Shown here: in pieces, positions 11,915-31,395 of the stretch
Layout of the letters: each line of letters starts with the position of its first letter
Numbering within the stretch: position 1 is the stretch's first letter
Assembly: GCA_014361245.1 (NCBI GenBank)
Contig: JACIWB010000011.1
Span: 1 to 33,439, forward strand
Length of the DNA stretch: 33,439 nucleotides
Direction: 5' to 3'
Origin: Thermoplasmatales archaeon
GTDB taxonomy: Archaea > Thermoplasmatota > E2 > UBA202 > JdFR-43
Notes under the pieces: model-generated
The model's input: only the letters and a program-made list of their open reading frames with translations
Databases searched by the model: none
Told to the model about the DNA's origin: nothing
Position numbers and translations under genes: made by a program

Positions 11915-11933
11915 TTTAAATCATTAATTTTTG

Positions 11934-12473
11934 ATGAAGATTATTGCTTTATTTGTTGCTGGATTGTTTCTTCTATCATTTGCTGGAGCCAAAAAAGAAA
12001 AATTTGAAGACGAGAAAATTTTTAGCTGGTTTATTTCATCGGTTCCATATGGTAGCGTAGATATTGACAGGGGCAAAGAAGCATTTATGAGATATTCCTT
12101 CTATTTCGTAACAGCCCATTATATATGGCAGGAAGGTTTTCATGCTGATGGGATAATATTTCATTTCCCGAATATATATGATGGAAAGGAGCATTGGGCA
12201 AATTTAACTGGTTATGTAGAAATTAAATTCCTTGATGGGGAATATTACAGAAATGATAATTATAATGTTACCACTCACTGGTGGGGCTCGCCTGGCTTCA
12301 CCTATTACTACATAAAAGTTATTTTTTCCCGAAAAATTGAGTTTATTCATCTTTGCCTTGATTATACTGAGGATGATGAGCATATAAGAACAATTGATAG
12401 AACATTTTACGGGAGATGGAACACATATTATGGAGAGAATATTTTCGGCGAAATGATGGAAACATTTATATAG
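11934..12473 (+). CDS. secreted protein of unknown function
   Basis: I do not recognise this protein. An N-terminal signal peptide is clear: MKIIALFVAGLFLLSFAGA, with cleavage likely after residue 19 or so. The mature 160 residues are rich in Tyr, Trp, Phe and acidic residues, with alternating patterns that suggest a beta-sandwich, and have no second membrane segment. I start at the ATG at 11934 because an ATG beside a well-spaced TATA box is preferred to the in-frame TTG at 11931. It is the first gene of the exported-protein island. Its stop codon overlaps the TATA box of the next gene. Confidence 0.75.
   Translation: MKIIALFVAGLFLLSFAGAKKEKFEDEKIFSWFISSVPYGSVDIDRGKEAFMRYSFYFVTAHYIWQEGFHADGIIFHFPNIYDGKEHWANLTGYVEIKFLDGEYYRNDNYNVTTHWWGSPGFTYYYIKVIFSRKIEFIHLCLDYTEDDEHIRTIDRTFYGRWNTYYGENIFGEMMETFI
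12465..12472 (+). promoter_or_regulatory. TATA box of the 124-residue secreted protein, inside the upstream gene's end
   Basis: TTTATATA is centred about 24 bp before the ATG at 12493. It includes most of the TAG stop codon of the preceding gene, so this gene probably has its own leaderless transcript. Confidence 0.65.
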
Positions 12474-12492
12474 CAATAATCATGATATTGTT

Positions 12493-12867
12493 ATGGAAGG
12501 AAAACATTTCCTTGTTGGGATTATAACTGCATTGATATTTGGAATAGCTTTAACTGGAGCAACTTCAATGCAATTTAATCCTTCACCCTTGCCAATAAAA
12601 GTTTTCATATCTGGTGGAGTTGGATGCAAAATGGCGGTAATAAATGATGGAAGCGAAACAATTACAGCAAGATGGAGCGTTACATACTGGAATATGGGGT
12701 ATCATAACATGGAAGGAACTTTTGATGTCCCTCCAAATTCAGCTGTTGAGAAAACATTTCCTGTTTTTTCAATTTTCTCTCCAATAACCGCAAGCATCAC
12801 CGCAGGCAATGAAGGGCTTACAAAAAATGGCTTTGTATTCCTATTCTTTGTAGTATTTCCAGATTAG
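12493..12867 (+). CDS. small secreted beta-domain protein, relative of a surface-protein C-terminal module
   Basis: An N-terminal hydrophobic signal (about residues 6-24, FLVGIITALIFGIALTGA) is followed by one domain of about 100 residues. That domain lines up by eye with the C-terminal module of the exported protein at 20342-22003. Both contain ISGGxGxK, then IxNxG with a Trp-Ser pair ten or more residues later, a GT..PxxS/T stretch, and an ending GFV-x(3-4)-FV. The function is unknown; the fold is probably CARDB- or Ig-like. There is no anchor beyond the signal, so it is released or bound to another surface protein. Confidence 0.75.
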   Translation: MEGKHFLVGIITALIFGIALTGATSMQFNPSPLPIKVFISGGVGCKMAVINDGSETITARWSVTYWNMGYHNMEGTFDVPPNSAVEKTFPVFSIFSPITASITAGNEGLTKNGFVFLFFVVFPD

Positions 12868-12926: not shown

Positions 12927-14876
12927 ATGAATAGCTACGGGAGGCTTTTATTTGCTCTTTCAGTTGGAATAATGGTAGCTGGATTTTCCTCAATTTTTCA
13001 GGGTAGAGGAAATGAATATTCAATTGAGCGTGGTTTGGGATGCATACCAGAGAATATAACCCCCGATAATAACATAAACTTCCTAAATCTTGCACCTCCT
13101 TCTTGGGACTGGAGAAGTCAGGGAATAGTTACTTCTGTTAAAAATCAAGGAGGATGCGGTTCATGTGTTGCTTTTGCCTGCATAGGGGTTTTTGAAGCGG
13201 TTATAAAATGGAAAACTGGTTTAACAACAGATTTAAGCGAGGCACATCTATTTTTCTGTGGGGGAGGAATTTGTGATTGGGGATGGTACATAAGTGCTGG
13301 AATGAATTACTTAAAAAATTATGGTGTGAGCGATGAAAGTTGCTTCCCTTATGATGGAGCAATTTATGGAAACCAGTTGCCATGCAATCCTTGCCAAGGA
13401 TGGGAGGAAAATGCATTTAAGATAGATTCATGGGGTGTTGTAAGCGGTAGAGAAAATATAAAGAATACAATTTATAATTATGGACCAGTTGCAGTTGATT
13501 TTGCTGTTTATGAAGATTTTTATTATGAGTATCCAAATCCGAGCAGATGGCCAAATGATGTATATTATCATCAATATGGCGACCCTGTTGGAGGGCATGC
13601 GGTTGCGATTGTTGGATATGATGACAGCGGGCAATACTGGATTTGCAAAAACAGCTGGGGAACAGGATGGGGCTTGCAGGGCTATTTCAAAATAAAATAT
13701 GGAGAATGTGGCATAGATGATACTGCCTATTATATTACATATAATCCCAATCTTATTGCAAGTGCGGGTGGGCCATATAAAGGCAAGCCAGGAGAGAGTT
13801 TGCAATTTTATGGTTCAGCATATGGTGGAGTAAAGCCATATAATTGGACATGGGACTTTGGAGACGGAAATAAAAGCTATGAGCAAAATCCAAGACATGC
13901 ATATAGTAAAGCTGGCAATTATAATGTGAAATTAACTGTAAGGGATGCCCAAGGAAAAACAGCAAGCTCAACAACAACTGCAACAATAAATACTCCCCCT
14001 GCAAAGCCAACCATAAAGGGACCAAATGGAGGAAGGAAGAATGTTCAATATACTTTTTATGCGGTTTCATATGACGGAGATGGAGATAAGATAAAATATA
14101 TAGTTAATTGGGGAGATGGAACTTCATCTGAAACTGGATTTATGCGCTCTGGAGAAAATGCGATTTTAACCCATGCATGGAAGAAGGAAGGAAAATATAA
14201 CATAAAGATTGAGGCGGAGGATGAAAGAGGAGGAAAGAGCGATGCTTCAAACTATTATATTGAAATAGGGCAGAAGGAGGCGCCAAATTCACCAACAAAT
14301 CCTTACCCGCCAGATGGAGCAACCGCTGTTCCATTAAATGTTATGCTTTCATGGGAATGCTACGACCCTGACAATGACACATTATATTATTCAATATATT
14401 TGGATGGAGAGAAAATTGCTGAAAACTTAACTGAAAATAAATATCAGTTGCGCAACCTTGAACCATTTAAGGAATATTCATGGGAAGTCCATGTTGTTGA
14501 TAGCGATGGCTCAACTTCACAAAGCCCAACATGGTATTTCAGAACAAAAGATATTACATCTCCAAATTTAAGCATTCTTGAACCAAAGGAAAAATATCTT
14601 TATATTGGGGGCTTTTCAATGCCTTTCTTTAAAACAATTTACATTGGAAAAATAAAAGTTATTGTAAATGCAAGCGATGAGCAGAGCGGAATGCAAAAAG
14701 TTGAATTTTATGTTGATGGAAAACTTGAAGAAACAATATATGAAGAGCCATATGAATGGATATGGAATGAAGACACACTTTACGATTTGCATATTCTTGA
14801 AGTAATTGCATATGATAATGAAGGAAATTATGCAAAGGATAGCATCCAGGCGGTTGTTTTAAATTTCTTCCCATAA
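12927..14876 (+). CDS. secreted papain-family (C1A) cysteine protease with PKD and Fn3-like domains
   Basis: An N-terminal hydrophobic segment (residues 7-24) directs export. The C1A catalytic domain spans about residues 56-272. It has oxyanion Q74 and nucleophile C80 in KNQGGCGSCVAF, H224 in GGHAVAIVGY and N242 in CKNSWGTGWG. The residue after the nucleophile is Val where papains usually have Trp. A classic propeptide is not obvious; only about 30 residues separate signal and catalytic domain. Then come a PKD domain (about 278-357, WTWDFGDGNKSYEQNPRHAY), a second PKD-like domain (about 360-447), an Fn3-like domain (about 450-542) and an Ig-like module (about 545-649). Role: probably extracellular proteolysis of proteins for nutrition. 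Confidence 0.92.
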   Translation: MNSYGRLLFALSVGIMVAGFSSIFQGRGNEYSIERGLGCIPENITPDNNINFLNLAPPSWDWRSQGIVTSVKNQGGCGSCVAFACIGVFEAVIKWKTGLTTDLSEAHLFFCGGGICDWGWYISAGMNYLKNYGVSDESCFPYDGAIYGNQLPCNPCQGWEENAFKIDSWGVVSGRENIKNTIYNYGPVAVDFAVYEDFYYEYPNPSRWPNDVYYHQYGDPVGGHAVAIVGYDDSGQYWICKNSWGTGWGLQGYFKIKYGECGIDDTAYYITYNPNLIASAGGPYKGKPGESLQFYGSAYGGVKPYNWTWDFGDGNKSYEQNPRHAYSKAGNYNVKLTVRDAQGKTASSTTTATINTPPAKPTIKGPNGGRKNVQYTFYAVSYDGDGDKIKYIVNWGDGTSSETGFMRSGENAILTHAWKKEGKYNIKIEAEDERGGKSDASNYYIEIGQKEAPNSPTNPYPPDGATAVPLNVMLSWECYDPDNDTLYYSIYLDGEKIAENLTENKYQLRNLEPFKEYSWEVHVVDSDGSTSQSPTWYFRTKDITSPNLSILEPKEKYLYIGGFSMPFFKTIYIGKIKVIVNASDEQSGMQKVEFYVDGKLEETIYEEPYEWIWNEDTLYDLHILEVIAYDNEGNYAKDSIQAVVLNFFP

Positions 14877-17900: not shown

Positions 17901-19425
17901 GGCAACTTATGCAAGATGCCACTGGCATGAAGAAGATGAGTTTGGAGTACCATATCCTGGTCCGGATGATGTTGCATTCTGGAACGGAGAACCAAGAAAT
18001 GTAATTGGCTCTGGAACATTGTATAGATTTGGAAACTATCCACCAATAGGAACCGCAATAAGCTTTGGTGCATGGACATATACAAAATTGAGTCCAGACC
18101 ATGGCTCATGGAATTACTGGTATGGAGTATGGGGAGAGAGAACATACTGGGCACAGGGCTATGCTGGAGAATGGCAGGAAATGTATCGCAACTATACAGT
18201 TGATTTCTCAGCGGTTCCACTAGGAGCAACAATAACATTCTATTTGGATGCAATTGCATATGATTCAACAACAAGCTACTGGCTTGAAGTAAGTGGCGAT
18301 AGCACATCGCAGATATTCGAGATACCAGGAGACGATAGCGGTAATTTGGTGCTATTCACATTTGATTTATCAGCATTTGCAGGAATGTCAGATGTATTGC
18401 TTGCATTCCATGTAAATCATACAACAACAAGTGGACAAGAAGAATTTACACTATGGGATGGATGGATAGACGCAGAAGCACCAATATGGCCATATGGCAA
18501 ATACTACAACAATGTTGATGAGAAATTGATATTCTACTTTGACTTAACACATGCATATGAAGCATTCCTTGAGTGGGACCAGAACTACAGCTTTGCAGAT
18601 AGCTATCCAGATGACTATGGACTTGTTGAGATATGGACTGGAAGCGAATGGAAGACACTATTCATAGTGCAGGGCAACAGCGGTGGTGGCTGGGGACACA
18701 TGAAACTTGACATAAGTGACTATGTTGGCGGAAGCGAACTTACAAAGATAAGATTTAGATTTATAAGCAATGATGCGAATGTTGATTATGGATGGCTCAT
18801 TGACAATATAAGCATACAGGGTAAGATTGACTATAAGAACCCAACAGCATCAGCAACATTAAGCCCAGCAACACCAAATGGATGCAATGGCTGGTATAAG
18901 ACAGGAGTAACAGTAACATTAACAGCAACAGATAATGTAAAGGTAGCAAAGATATACTACCGCATTGATGGCGGAACCTGGAAAGTATACACTGCACCAT
19001 TCACAGTTGATGTTGATGGAAGCCACACAATTGATTACTATGCAGAAGATGAAGTTGGAAACACATCACCAGTTGGAACAGTGAGCTTCAAGATAGATAA
19101 GACAGCACCAACAGTTACAATAACAGCCCCACAGGCAGGATACATCTACTTGATGGGAAGACAACTCTTCAAGAACCCACTCGGTGGAACAGTAATCATC
19201 GGAGGAATCAACTTTGAAGCAACTGCAAGCGATGCAATGAGCGGAATTGACTATGTAACATTTAACATAAATGGCTACTCCTATGATGATGCAAGCGCAC
19301 CATACAAGATATGGTGGCACAAGTTCGACTTGATGCCAACAAAGTATACATTGACAGTTTCAGCATACGACGAAGCATGCAATAAAGCAGCTGACCAGAC
19401 ACTAAGCTTTACACACTGGCTATAA
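14932..19425 (+). CDS. 1497-residue modular secreted surface protein
   Basis: A signal peptide (about residues 8-30) is followed by a very long acidic, Trp/Tyr/Thr-rich ectodomain. Five segments end with a related strand motif: TIFIDNVVIA (about residue 179), GWYIDDVCIE (408), LYIDDILVY (719), GWFIDDVVVG (957) and GWLIDNISIQ (1287). These are typical of the last strands of MAM-like jelly-roll domains found in bacterial and archaeal exoproteins. CARDB-like spacers lie between them (for example ITDIVVPPSVQ onward). Near 1303-1390 an Ig-like domain (YYRIDGGTWKVYTAPFTVDV) precedes a final module (1395-1497) shared with the protease upstream. No C-terminal membrane anchor is visible. Uniform use of ACA, GCA and GGA suggests high expression. 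It could be an S-layer-type protein or adhesin; no enzymatic motif was recognised. Confidence 0.85.
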   Translation: MTEKKYRLVISVFVAIAMITTTIPMAIIAVPPPSDSQEAIFEPTPPTPGYQGPNAQIVFEETFDADLGAFTATDDSGDGAWAWDGTEEAAMWADGGQTDDEDDTLSADIALPQIDTTCNALTLQFDYWGEGGVFEVLADTDLLGTFTATALATADIDLTAYQGTTITLTFHVDATETRTIFIDNVVIAQNPTTDIIINGIEGMEDGGRYNTFPKWIDVNVTNGGTEPITGADFHLQIYKEVPFEPIVYKCWDMETCFLLTWDVFSWDGDQASWYWTEKRSYSPTHSYHSQPDYLDTYEADSFDSLVLHDYFAIPTTIEVDGHTQPVTGAYLTFWHWCEGEFDGTNPIDYGVVSIETAVPPPPSAIVGGPYYDTNGEWVQETIDISAWIGESIKINFTWISDEYLNFEGWYIDDVCIELQVGSDQPLIFQGYSYEDFEAGETRTFSFPIQWTIEEPGTYYIQVYTDYEDCNPLGNEINWTIWFGDVCDGEITDIVVPPSVQMPNTYCDGVAHEEMNWVIVPIDVTVHNNGTLVEDIPVEVTARHKITENLWKDDVESGDLGYTYVVWGGDNLWNIVDADFYSPFHSWHFGDTATHYPAGVNAGFMIVPEGEVDWADLKNYADADIVIKAKWDFRGTDMAVPVLIDGTTWYFFIGRSVHLTGNSGGWQEVRFSNLLAGYVSYLGLNNIFELPEAYGFTNFRGFALGICGPGLAPTVGGGAGLYIDDILVYKSYAGEVVWSDTLVAEDLEPCHSEVLHFEWNTTEYCDYIITATVKLDCDMDPTNDEMGAPTRIWKQIYEPDTWEKWEQEDNTYGLPDHWHIVEECSICPDDHKWWNGDEATGIYPNEVDEVLVINRTFDFTGLTEAYISFETYYYIEAGYDYGYVEVSNDCGDTWFRLATYTGNTGGAWVTETLDLIPGTTILYSEYTDFSFVMPIDFFTDKMHFRFRFVSDELSAEKGWFIDDVVVGSGADIFFFDDMEDATFSADAWYHMATYARCHWHEEDEFGVPYPGPDDVAFWNGEPRNVIGSGTLYRFGNYPPIGTAISFGAWTYTKLSPDHGSWNYWYGVWGERTYWAQGYAGEWQEMYRNYTVDFSAVPLGATITFYLDAIAYDSTTSYWLEVSGDSTSQIFEIPGDDSGNLVLFTFDLSAFAGMSDVLLAFHVNHTTTSGQEEFTLWDGWIDAEAPIWPYGKYYNNVDEKLIFYFDLTHAYEAFLEWDQNYSFADSYPDDYGLVEIWTGSEWKTLFIVQGNSGGGWGHMKLDISDYVGGSELTKIRFRFISNDANVDYGWLIDNISIQGKIDYKNPTASATLSPATPNGCNGWYKTGVTVTLTATDNVKVAKIYYRIDGGTWKVYTAPFTVDVDGSHTIDYYAEDEVGNTSPVGTVSFKIDKTAPTVTITAPQAGYIYLMGRQLFKNPLGGTVIIGGINFEATASDAMSGIDYVTFNINGYSYDDASAPYKIWWHKFDLMPTKYTLTVSAYDEACNKAADQTLSFTHWL

Positions 19426-20331: not shown

Positions 20332-20341
20332 CATGATAAAA

Positions 20342-22003
20342 ATGAAAGGAAAAAAAATGTTGGCAACACTTCTGGCAACAATAGTGGTTGCTGGAGCGAT
20401 TTTTGTAAGCGGGGCAAAAAACAATGGCTCAATAAAAATCAACGAATCAGAAAAAATAACGGTAGATAGGGCAACGATAACAGCAAATAAGGAGCTTTGC
20501 ACTGAATTAAAAACATTGGAAAAGAAAATTATTCCACTGCCACTTGCTGATATACCTGTGACTGCGGGCGAGACAGATGAATCACATCCAGCAATTGCAA
20601 GCGATGGAGTTGGAAATATATGGCTTGCATTTGAAGGCGATTTAAGGCAAACAGGCGAGTATAATGTATGGTTTACTTATGGAACAGAAGGAGGAGCTAC
20701 ATGGGCTGAAAATGCTGTTGCCTGGAACATAGAAAGCCCGCCAGAAAGACCATCTCTTGACTACTGGGGAGGAACAAGATTTTTCGGAACAATGGTTCCA
20801 AGCCCGTATGATGCGGATGGTGGAGCCCTTTATCTACTATCATGTGAGGACCCAACAAACTTTGATACATATACTGCTGTATACTGGACAGTTAATGATT
20901 TGGGAGCGGGATATTATGGCTTTGTTGATGTTGATATAGCATGTGATAATGCTCTTGAGAACTGGGCATATGGTGGTATATCAATGCTCGGAGAGCATGG
21001 TCGTGGAGGAGAAAGATTAACCAAAACACCTATGTTTTCATATCAATGCACTGAAGCAGGAGTTGCATGGTTCTATTATTTCAGCAGCGCAGATGACCCC
21101 TTCAAAATTGAAAATGGACAATCAACAGCATTTGATATTGACCCAGTAACACATCTTGCCTATCCAGTATGGAATTACTTAAATGCTGAAACTGGTGTTC
21201 TTGACATATTCTTCTATATATTTGACTTTGGAAAATGGGATGAGTATCAGGGGTATCCAATTCATCCTGATGTTGGAGGTGGTTTCATAAATACAACAGG
21301 AATAAATGACATGAACATAGATATTTCTGCATACAATAACAATATAATAATTGTTTCGCAAACAGACGAATATGGTAGCCAGGATATAACATGCTACTAT
21401 TCTACAGATGGACTTCAGACAGTAAATAAAGTTATGATAGCAAATACAGGGGATAATGAAATGTATCCAAGAGTGATGCATATCGGAGAAAATTCCGCAA
21501 TATGTATATTTGTAAAGAATGGAAATCTCTACTATACACAAACTGAGGATGGAGGAGCAACATGGTCACAGCCAACAAAGATTAATGATGTTGATGGAAG
21601 CGTTGCAGAGGAATATGATACCGCAGATATGTGTAAAGCGGGTGCAATATGGATGGACAACAGAAACGGAAATTATGATTTATTCTTCGATACTGTTGGA
21701 GCATTCCCGATAGTGGGCATTCAGAGTATTTCAGGTGGATTTGGGGCAAAAGTAACAATAGCAAATATTGGAAATGCACCAGCTAAAAATGTTGCATGGA
21801 GCATTGATTTAGAAGGAGGACTTGTTTTGCTTGGAAAGCACAAGGAAGGAACAATTTCAGAAATTCAACCAGGAACAAGCACAACAGTAAGCACTGGGCT
21901 TGTGCTCGGAATTGGAAAAGTGAATATAAAAGCGAGGGCAGGAGAAGCTTCAGCTACCGCAAGTGGCTTCGTGCTCGGCCCGTTTGTGCTGGGCGTGAGC
22001 TAA
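20342..22003 (+). CDS. secreted BNR/sialidase-like repeat protein with a C-terminal beta module
   Basis: A signal peptide (about residues 6-24, LATLLATIVVAGAIFVSG) is followed by a beta-rich ectodomain. Sialidase-type Asp-box/BNR-like strands are visible: SHPAIASDGVGNIWLAFEGD, TYGTEGGATWAENAV, CYYSTDGLQTV and TEDGGATWSQPTKIND. They point to a propeller in the middle of the protein. No sialidase catalytic set was identified, so enzymatic activity is not claimed. The last 95 residues form a separate module beginning VGIQSISGGFGAKVTIANIG and ending FVLGPFVLGVS, similar to the stand-alone protein at 12493-12867. I start at 20342 on ribosome-binding-site spacing; 20333 is the alternative. Confidence 0.8.
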   Translation: MKGKKMLATLLATIVVAGAIFVSGAKNNGSIKINESEKITVDRATITANKELCTELKTLEKKIIPLPLADIPVTAGETDESHPAIASDGVGNIWLAFEGDLRQTGEYNVWFTYGTEGGATWAENAVAWNIESPPERPSLDYWGGTRFFGTMVPSPYDADGGALYLLSCEDPTNFDTYTAVYWTVNDLGAGYYGFVDVDIACDNALENWAYGGISMLGEHGRGGERLTKTPMFSYQCTEAGVAWFYYFSSADDPFKIENGQSTAFDIDPVTHLAYPVWNYLNAETGVLDIFFYIFDFGKWDEYQGYPIHPDVGGGFINTTGINDMNIDISAYNNNIIIVSQTDEYGSQDITCYYSTDGLQTVNKVMIANTGDNEMYPRVMHIGENSAICIFVKNGNLYYTQTEDGGATWSQPTKINDVDGSVAEEYDTADMCKAGAIWMDNRNGNYDLFFDTVGAFPIVGIQSISGGFGAKVTIANIGNAPAKNVAWSIDLEGGLVLLGKHKEGTISEIQPGTSTTVSTGLVLGIGKVNIKARAGEASATASGFVLGPFVLGVS

Positions 22004-29097: not shown

Positions 29098-31395
29098 ATG
29101 AAGAAAACAGCAATATGCATTGCAGGAATTTTGCTTGTTTCCTTATTCACCATACAGGGGAGGGCAAATGCTAATGGCGGGGAAATTTCTGGAGTTGCAT
29201 TTGCAAGTGATGGAAACATAATTACTGTCGGCTATTTGCTCGAGAATGAGAAATATGTAATGACCGTTGAAAAATACGACAGCCAGAATGGATACTTAAT
29301 TTGGAGCAAGAAATTCAGCACATATTCACAAAATATCGGAAAGGCGGTTGTTGTGGATGCCAGCGGAAACATTTATGCGGGGGCGGTGGCTGGAGGAGGG
29401 GTTGCGGGAATTGAAATTCCATCAACTGATTACTTAATTGTTAAATATGATAAGAATGGAAATGAAATATGGAATAAGACATATAATAATGGATTTGCTG
29501 ATTTTTTAATGGATATGGCGATAGATGAAGATAATAATGTTTATGCAACTGGAATGACTCTTTATCTCAATATTGGAAATCAAAGTCTATCAAATATTGA
29601 TTTCTGGACAATAAAAATTGGGGGAGATGGAAATATAATCAGGCAGGATAAATATGATGAGGAAATGGATGCAGCTTTTGGTATAGATATTAAAGGAAAT
29701 AAAGTTATTGTTGCTGGAACTGTGCAGAAAGGGGAGGAGCAGAGTAAATATTGTGCGGTTATCTATAATAAGGATTTGGTTCTGACTTCAACCATATATT
29801 ATGAAATCGGAATATGTTCTGCTTCGGATGTTGCGATTTTCAATGATGGAAGCTTTGCTGTTACTGGAAGCAAGAATGACGATATATTAACAATTATTTA
29901 TGATAGCAATGGAAATAAGAAAAAAGAGTTTTCTGAAGGAGGAAGCAAGAAGGATGACGCACTTGCAATTTCATCAGATGGAAGCAATTTTGTTATAGGG
30001 GGTTATACAACAACAGAGAATATTCAAAAGAAATGGTATATTGCAAAATACAGCCAGAATTCAAAATTATGGGATTTAAAGGATATAGAGGGAGAGATAA
30101 AAAGAGTTGCAATTGATAATGAAGGAAATGTATATGCGGTTGGTTATAAATTGCAGGGAGGAAATGAAATTCCATGTATAAGAAAATATTCATCCGATGG
30201 AAATTTCATATGGGAGGGAAAATTGGGAGAGCCATCCCAGCCCTTAAAGGCTGATTTCAGATGGCTTCCAACAAATCCAACAAGAGCGGATATGGTGAAT
30301 TTTTATGATGCATCTACTGGGGGTATAAATTCATGGGAATGGGACTTCGGTGATGGAAGTTTTAGTTATGAAAAAAATCCAAAACATAAATACAGCACAA
30401 CTGGAAGATTTTATGTAACTTTGAGGATTAGAGGCGCAGGCGGAGAGGCGAATGTAACAAAAGAAATTTATATCTCAAATGCCCTTCCTTTTGCAGATTT
30501 CGATTGGAACCCAAAAAATCCTGTGGAAAAAGTAAATATTACCTTTAATGCTTCTTCAAGCTATGATTTGGATGGCTACATAGTTAATTATACCTGGAAT
30601 TTTGGAGATGGAAGCATTGCTTATGGAAAAGAAGTTATACATGCCTATAACAGCAAAGGAAATTATACAGTCAATTTAACAGTATTGGATAATGACAGGG
30701 GTGAAAAGAGAATTTCAAAATTAATTATGGTGGGCGAGAGTGGCGCTTCTCCACCCTTTGCAATTTTTACAATTAAAGAAAAAGCAGGAAAGGGAGAATT
30801 CGTATTAATTGATGGAAGTGGGAGTTATGATAACGGCACCATTGTCAAATATATATGGGATTTTGGAGATGAAACAAATATGACAACAACTCAGCCGTAT
30901 GTGCAGCATGCATGGTATAAAGACGGCGAATATAAGGTTACACTCATAGTTGAAGATGATGAAGGATATCAATCATCATATTCAAGGGTTATAGTTGTAG
31001 GTGGTTTGCCTGAGTTAACAATTGTTGCTCCAGATGAAATTTCATGCGAGAAGAATAAAGAAAAATCCTTCAAAATCAATATTTCCTCCATCAATCAATC
31101 TCTATTTTACTTGAACTTTTCTTTTGAAATTGAGGGAGATATTGAGGTAAATCCACAAATAAATAACTTTAACATTTCTGCTGGTGATACAAAAGAGATT
31201 GAAATAAAAGTTATTGCAAATGAAAAAGGAAAGATAAAGATAAAATTGATTGGAAAAGATATAGAAAATGATATTGATGTTGGAAGCAATGAAGCAATTG
31301 TTTCTGTTAATTTATCTGAGAAGACACCTTCCTTTGAGCTTTTTGCATTTATACTTGCAATAATTGCCATTATACTTATAAGAAGAAAGAAATGA
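29098..31395 (+). CDS. cell-surface protein with beta-propeller repeats, three PKD domains and a C-terminal anchor
   Basis: A signal peptide (residues 5-24) leads to about 350 residues of propeller-like repeats of the SBBP type: AVVVDASGNIYAGAV, YDKNGNEIWNKTYNNGFADF, MAIDEDNNVYATGM and VAIDNEGNVYAVGYK. Three PKD domains follow at about 382-458, 459-543 and 544-635, each with the WxFGD strand (WEWDFGDGSFSYEKNPKHKY, WNFGDGS, WDFGDET). A final beta region (about 640-740) precedes the tail SFELFAFILAIIAIILIRRKK. That tail is a hydrophobic helix with basic end, preceded by TP-S-F, which resembles the PGF-CTERM signals of archaeosortase substrates. It is coupled to the A24 peptidase by an ATGA overlap. 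No enzymatic function was recognised. Confidence 0.87.
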   Translation: MKKTAICIAGILLVSLFTIQGRANANGGEISGVAFASDGNIITVGYLLENEKYVMTVEKYDSQNGYLIWSKKFSTYSQNIGKAVVVDASGNIYAGAVAGGGVAGIEIPSTDYLIVKYDKNGNEIWNKTYNNGFADFLMDMAIDEDNNVYATGMTLYLNIGNQSLSNIDFWTIKIGGDGNIIRQDKYDEEMDAAFGIDIKGNKVIVAGTVQKGEEQSKYCAVIYNKDLVLTSTIYYEIGICSASDVAIFNDGSFAVTGSKNDDILTIIYDSNGNKKKEFSEGGSKKDDALAISSDGSNFVIGGYTTTENIQKKWYIAKYSQNSKLWDLKDIEGEIKRVAIDNEGNVYAVGYKLQGGNEIPCIRKYSSDGNFIWEGKLGEPSQPLKADFRWLPTNPTRADMVNFYDASTGGINSWEWDFGDGSFSYEKNPKHKYSTTGRFYVTLRIRGAGGEANVTKEIYISNALPFADFDWNPKNPVEKVNITFNASSSYDLDGYIVNYTWNFGDGSIAYGKEVIHAYNSKGNYTVNLTVLDNDRGEKRISKLIMVGESGASPPFAIFTIKEKAGKGEFVLIDGSGSYDNGTIVKYIWDFGDETNMTTTQPYVQHAWYKDGEYKVTLIVEDDEGYQSSYSRVIVVGGLPELTIVAPDEISCEKNKEKSFKINISSINQSLFYLNFSFEIEGDIEVNPQINNFNISAGDTKEIEIKVIANEKGKIKIKLIGKDIENDIDVGSNEAIVSVNLSEKTPSFELFAFILAIIAIILIRRKK

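Follow-up and report, generated by a model that had tools for sequence, protein, structure and literature searches.

A mostly C-terminal Ig-like module of exported archaeal proteins and its free-standing form, a candidate surface-retention tag

Described systems nearest to the module

The CARDB domain (PF07705; E-set Ig-like, with the structures 2kl6 and 3idu of PF1109) occurs in exported archaeal proteins as an Ig-like beta-sandwich some 100 residues long; both CARDB-domain proteins and proteins with a single CARDB domain, the latter grouped as arCOG02532, are common in archaea (PMC8416519). The VARTIG genes of Thermococcales (PMC8416519), which are clustered and hypervariable, encode small CARDB-like Ig proteins that end in DNNxxxGG and correspond to the C-terminal part of a larger, exported Ig protein. 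In Bacteroidota, many exported enzymes end in the T9SS C-terminal domain, an Ig-like beta-sandwich; T9SS genes are reported to be missing from archaea (PMC11285876), and an MBG-D C25 peptidase was earlier annotated with a Por sorting domain (PMC6461988). Archaeosortase/PGF-CTERM tails, made up of a short motif, a single membrane helix and then basic residues, are C-terminal elements of many exported archaeal proteins.

The module described here is encoded in a window of 33,439 nucleotides (the whole stretch analysed, from a Thermoplasmatales archaeon) both as a free-standing gene and as the C-terminal part of a larger BNR-like exported protein. It resembles CARDB in its size, fold and occurrence in exported archaeal proteins, and this likeness is seen in weak but repeated profile matches, in a TM-score of 0.62 and in the E-set fold of the confident models. 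However, unlike CARDB, the module is single, mostly C-terminal and class-restricted, and ends in a conserved hydrophobic strand. For a small Ig protein that corresponds to the end of a large one, the VARTIG set comes closest as a precedent, but the module copies are scattered over the genome and carried by unrelated enzymes, and the DNNxxxGG motif is present in none of 168 module tails. Further, a VARTIG-type cluster is absent, as the free gene is separated from the fused one by 7.5 kb with unrelated genes in the window and by about 24 kb in genome G064. With the T9SS domain, the module shares its cargo in part (C25 and M14 peptidases) and the importance of the C-terminus itself. However, sequence similarity, PorV and an outer membrane are all lacking, and an N-terminal position is also possible: Por secretion tail models gave no match among the NCBIfam/Pfam results for 14 modules, and the PorV family, the T9SS component searched, was found in 0 of 8 genomes. 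The module is not a T9SS domain. In contrast to an archaeosortase tail, it folds as a domain and has no helix, and the window genome has both kinds of element. Archaeosortase was considered as a specific partner of the module and rejected, since its gene is also present in module-less genomes. The window genome has one archaeosortase gene, and a 765-aa PKD protein (29098-31395) ends in TPSFELFAFILAIIAIILIRRKK, in appearance an archaeosortase-type tail. In genome G072 (L217 4708-6534), a free gene lies less than 1 kb from the archaeosortase gene, and on contig C45 of G047 a fused module gene is close to one; this closeness may be due to chance.

The free-standing protein and the tail of the BNR-like protein

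The free-standing gene is an intact open reading frame on the + strand (12493-12867), as stated in the earlier note. The 124 residues that it encodes, described there as the mature protein, are the length of the precursor; a putative signal peptide (approximately 12493-12564, +), recognized from its lysine, hydrophobic stretch and small residues, ends near LTGA/TSMQF as read from the sequence, and the mature protein would be about 100 residues long. The Ig-like module of the free type covers positions 12592-12864 (+) and is matched by the free-lineage profile with an E-value of 2.3e-34, the window sequence itself being part of that profile. The fused form is located in a 556-aa BNR-like exported protein (20333-22003, +; BNR_2 E-value 3.3e-5, under the curated cut-off), of which it makes up the last 97 residues (21710-22000, +, in frame; the start at 21706 proposed earlier is out of frame).

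The proposal that these two segments align is borne out. Residues 39-121 of the free protein align in BLASTP with residues 466-553 of the BNR-like protein, 24 of 89 positions being identical (27%), with an E-value of 4e-5, which becomes 0.006 when adjusted for composition. The score of the local alignment is 67, compared with a mean of 25.8 (SD 4.4) for shuffled sequences, and was reached in none of 5000 shuffles. The motifs named earlier, viz. ISGGxGxK, an IxNxG-like stretch, WS, EGTxxxxP and GFVxxxFV, are all present, and in the profile check a profile of the free forms finds the fused ones and vice versa. The two are homologous, chance similarity being ruled out by the shuffles and by the recurrence of the module across genomes. 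As had been claimed, one gene makes the module free and another fuses it; the fused arrangement is found in many genes.

AlphaFold2 models of the fused module (mean pLDDT 94.2, pTM 0.84) and of the free module (mean pLDDT 93.4, pTM 0.81) have the same strand order and predict the same Ig-like beta-sandwich for both, although the alignment used for the free model includes fused modules and the two predictions are thus partly dependent. Neither of the two checks proposed in the earlier note, by profile and by predicted structure, spoke against the relationship. Among 50 listed structures, the top whole-domain match of the fused module is the CARDB domain of PF1109 (2kl6; TM 0.62, rmsd 2.7), and the free form resembles Ig-like domains generally; the best structural E-value (3.5e-4) is for an archaeal type IV pilus subunit, 8fk7, with a TM-score of only 0.45. 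At the sequence level, 9 of 14 diverse modules match CARDB with E-values of 0.01 or lower (best 1.3e-5). The fused module of the window (E-value 1.8e-4) scores 22.1 bits, below the curated cut-off of 22.7, and the free protein of the window has no CARDB match. A sequence search of the PDB gave nothing significant (2l0d at an E-value of 0.7 only). As modelled, the fold is not new but Ig-like, with CARDB nearest. Of the earlier suggestion of an undescribed secreted domain family, what stands is that the class-wide family is real and is not represented by a dedicated model in either Pfam or NCBIfam. No description of it was found in the open-access literature, a coverage that leaves out most subscription journals.

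The last strand sets the module apart. Most other strands show an alternation of polar and apolar residues, whereas in the terminal 8-10 residues both faces are hydrophobic, with a minimum-face value of 2.6 compared to 1.25 or less elsewhere, and this strand is the domain's extreme in 95 of 123 sequences. The tails consist of 8-12 hydrophobic residues and are predicted to form a strand, not a helix. The hydrophobic end is common to the free proteins, where it is preceded by a common [RK]xG motif; in the window protein it corresponds to GFVFLFFVVFPD (12829-12864, +), which aligns with the GFVLGPFVLG end of fused modules. Such a strand may serve as a docking surface.

The orthologue of the free protein in the other genome of the genus is 62-63% identical. 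In comparison with that genome, the free gene has a dN/dS of 0.31 versus 0.10-0.18 for its neighbours; it is thus under purifying selection, yet evolving faster than they are. A TATA-like box, TTTATATA (12465-12472, +), is situated 21-28 bases 5' of the ATG, and since a similar box precedes the orthologue, a putative promoter function and a separate transcript of the free gene are suggested. The gene order around the free gene is identical in both genomes. The free gene is followed by a papain-like protease gene (12927-14876), whose product has PKD and Ig domains, and by the gene for a 1497-aa MAM/Ig protein. Directly upstream, an exported-looking 180-aa protein (11931-12473), 78% identical in the sister genome, has no family match. 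The C1 protease (14589-14873) and the 1497-aa protein (19141-19398) end in another shared Ig-like domain, of the Big_7 type, which has 27 matches in the window genome and 27 in its sister, compared to two complete fused copies of the present module; these exported proteins may have in it a C-terminal element of a second kind.

Distribution, lineages and partner proteins

Using a profile, the fused module was detected in 71 of 80 genomes of the window genome's class of Thermoplasmatota (68 of 80 by single-sequence search), whereas none of 310 genomes sampled from the rest of the phylum had it, the contig scan having used strict patterns that distant copies elsewhere could escape. The named relatives are uncultured Thermoplasmatota assemblies, and NCBI files UBA202 under unclassified Methanobacteriota. 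The number of copies per genome ranges from 1 to about 59, the window genome having only three or four fused ones. A viral origin was also considered; one scan of viral contigs with the fused-module alignment found no module.

The earlier note had called the free protein a copy of the module of the BNR-like protein, which the phylogeny does not support. In a tree of 56 sequences, built on 99 columns and unsure in its details, 14 free proteins, including that of the window, form one clade (support 99/96) present in all 200 bootstrap trees. Thus the window gene appears from the tree to belong to an old, separate free-standing lineage, and a recent copy of the neighbour's tail receives no support. 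Four other free proteins nest among the fused modules and may represent later detachments; a single clade of all 18 free proteins is not rejected (p-AU 0.12). Within the class, 14 of the 80 genomes have strong free-lineage genes, and no matches to this lineage were found outside it. The window genome also encodes a 581-aa beta-helix protein with a free-type C-terminus. In three genomes of one genus (L209, L211 and L222), the free gene adjoins a conserved 1043-aa gene, probably encoding valyl-tRNA synthetase, and this conserved place argues against recent copying.

The module occurs as a single copy in 184 of 187 module sequences, a set in which some entries, from overlapping loci, are truncated forms of a single protein. 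Where the stop is known, it lies within 30 residues of the C-terminus in 170 of 179 sequences and within 5 residues in 144. Nine cases are not C-terminal, two of them due to assembly gaps and one a very weak match. However, there are real exceptions, in which the module is placed behind the signal peptide or inside the protein, viz. in SBP_bac_5 proteins, a glucose/sorbosone dehydrogenase and arylsulfotransferases, and a strictly C-terminal signal is contradicted by these N-terminal modules. The partners are unrelated exported proteins, including gingipain-like C25, M14, S8, C1 and M28 peptidases and FG-GAP and BNR propellers; the Pfam domains in 58 hosts from two genomes were PKD (15), C25 (7), FG-GAP (5), M14 and PQQ (3 each), and S8, C1 and M28 (2 each). 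In two genomes, signal-like N-termini are present in 41 of 44 and 26 of 31 module proteins, and internal membrane helices in only 2 of these 75. A lipobox was found in only 3 of 146 module proteins, and lipoprotein anchoring was therefore rejected. By a strict pattern, 19 of 30 peptide-binding proteins of these genomes have an SGC-type lipid-anchor cysteine, whereas the SBP_bac_5 proteins L251 and L254 lack the SGC cysteine seen in related proteins and carry the module at that position. A peptide-binding protein of an ABC transporter would be expected to remain at the cell, and the replacement of the anchor cysteine by the module, although seen in two proteins only, thus supports retention. 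Another peptide-binding group (L231 and L232) has neither lipobox nor module; its members carry a C-terminal extension of 90 residues with a hydrophobic end, possibly a retention element of another kind.

Possible function and significance of the module

Based on these observations, the best reading, to which we would give an even chance, is that this domain of CARDB-like fold acts as a surface-retention tag specific to the class; of the earlier proposal of a sorting or assembly element, the sorting side is kept, here as sorting or anchoring. The host proteins would be exported via their signal peptides, the Ig-like domain would fold outside the cell, and its last strand would dock on a common envelope partner, such as an S-layer or membrane component, so that the enzyme would be retained there. 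The free soluble form encoded in the window would most likely use this docking site too, whether as subunit, cap or competitor. The retention, the docking and this role of the free form are what we infer from several features: the scarcity of any other anchor (internal helices or lipoboxes) in exported module proteins, unrelated partners that are mainly peptidases and propellers, restriction to the class (71/80 versus 0/310), single-copy C-terminal use, a last strand hydrophobic on both faces, and the two SBP_bac_5 proteins with a module instead of an anchor cysteine. However, the last argument involves just two proteins, and the L231 and L232 group has neither anchor; an N-terminal module also works, so that recognition of a C-terminal signal by sorting machinery is not required; the window genome has few fused copies; and the hydrophobic strand could instead pack on a neighbouring domain.

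The module could alternatively be an ordinary CARDB-type accessory Ig domain binding carbohydrate, peptide or another cell, its C-terminal place being mere habit. This we consider rather unlikely, although the CARDB matches in 9 of 14 modules, the PF1109 domain as nearest whole-domain structure and the frequency of CARDB and single-CARDB proteins in archaea (PMC8416519) agree with it, because the module occurs once per protein and nearly always last, its partners (transporter-binding proteins and propellers included) have no common substrate, and the doubly hydrophobic strand would form a contact surface unlike a sugar site. A secretion or sorting signal recognized and cut by a dedicated protease or sortase, similar to that of T9SS, would account for the place, the overall fold class, the C25/M14 cargo overlapping that of T9SS domains and the conserved extreme C-terminus; it is nevertheless improbable in view of the missing T9SS profile matches and PorV, the occurrence of archaeosortase in module-less genomes and the N-terminal modules, which do not fit a C-terminal cut. 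It is likewise improbable that the module is an assembly element whose free and fused forms pair via the hydrophobic edge strand into a surface polymer or complex. The fold and end strand common to both forms and the pilus subunit 8fk7 as best structural E-value point in this direction, but with free-lineage genes in 14 of 80 genomes compared to 71 of 80 for the module, the free form is not needed everywhere.

If the module is a surface-retention tag, it may also account for the bacterial Por sorting domain assigned to such a peptidase, and archaea would offer a straightforward, testable example of surface tagging by a folded domain, possibly without a covalent link. The way in which these archaea retain protein-degrading enzymes near the cell in sediment bears on their ecology, and a recognizable tag would allow the surface proteins of uncultured genomes to be listed from sequence alone. 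More tentatively, and with the odds somewhat against it, a whole class of Thermoplasmatota could have its own surface-display system parallel to archaeosortase, consisting of a folded Ig-like tag with a hydrophobic end strand, which can be acquired at either end of an exported protein, a dedicated envelope receptor, and free tags serving as partners or regulators.
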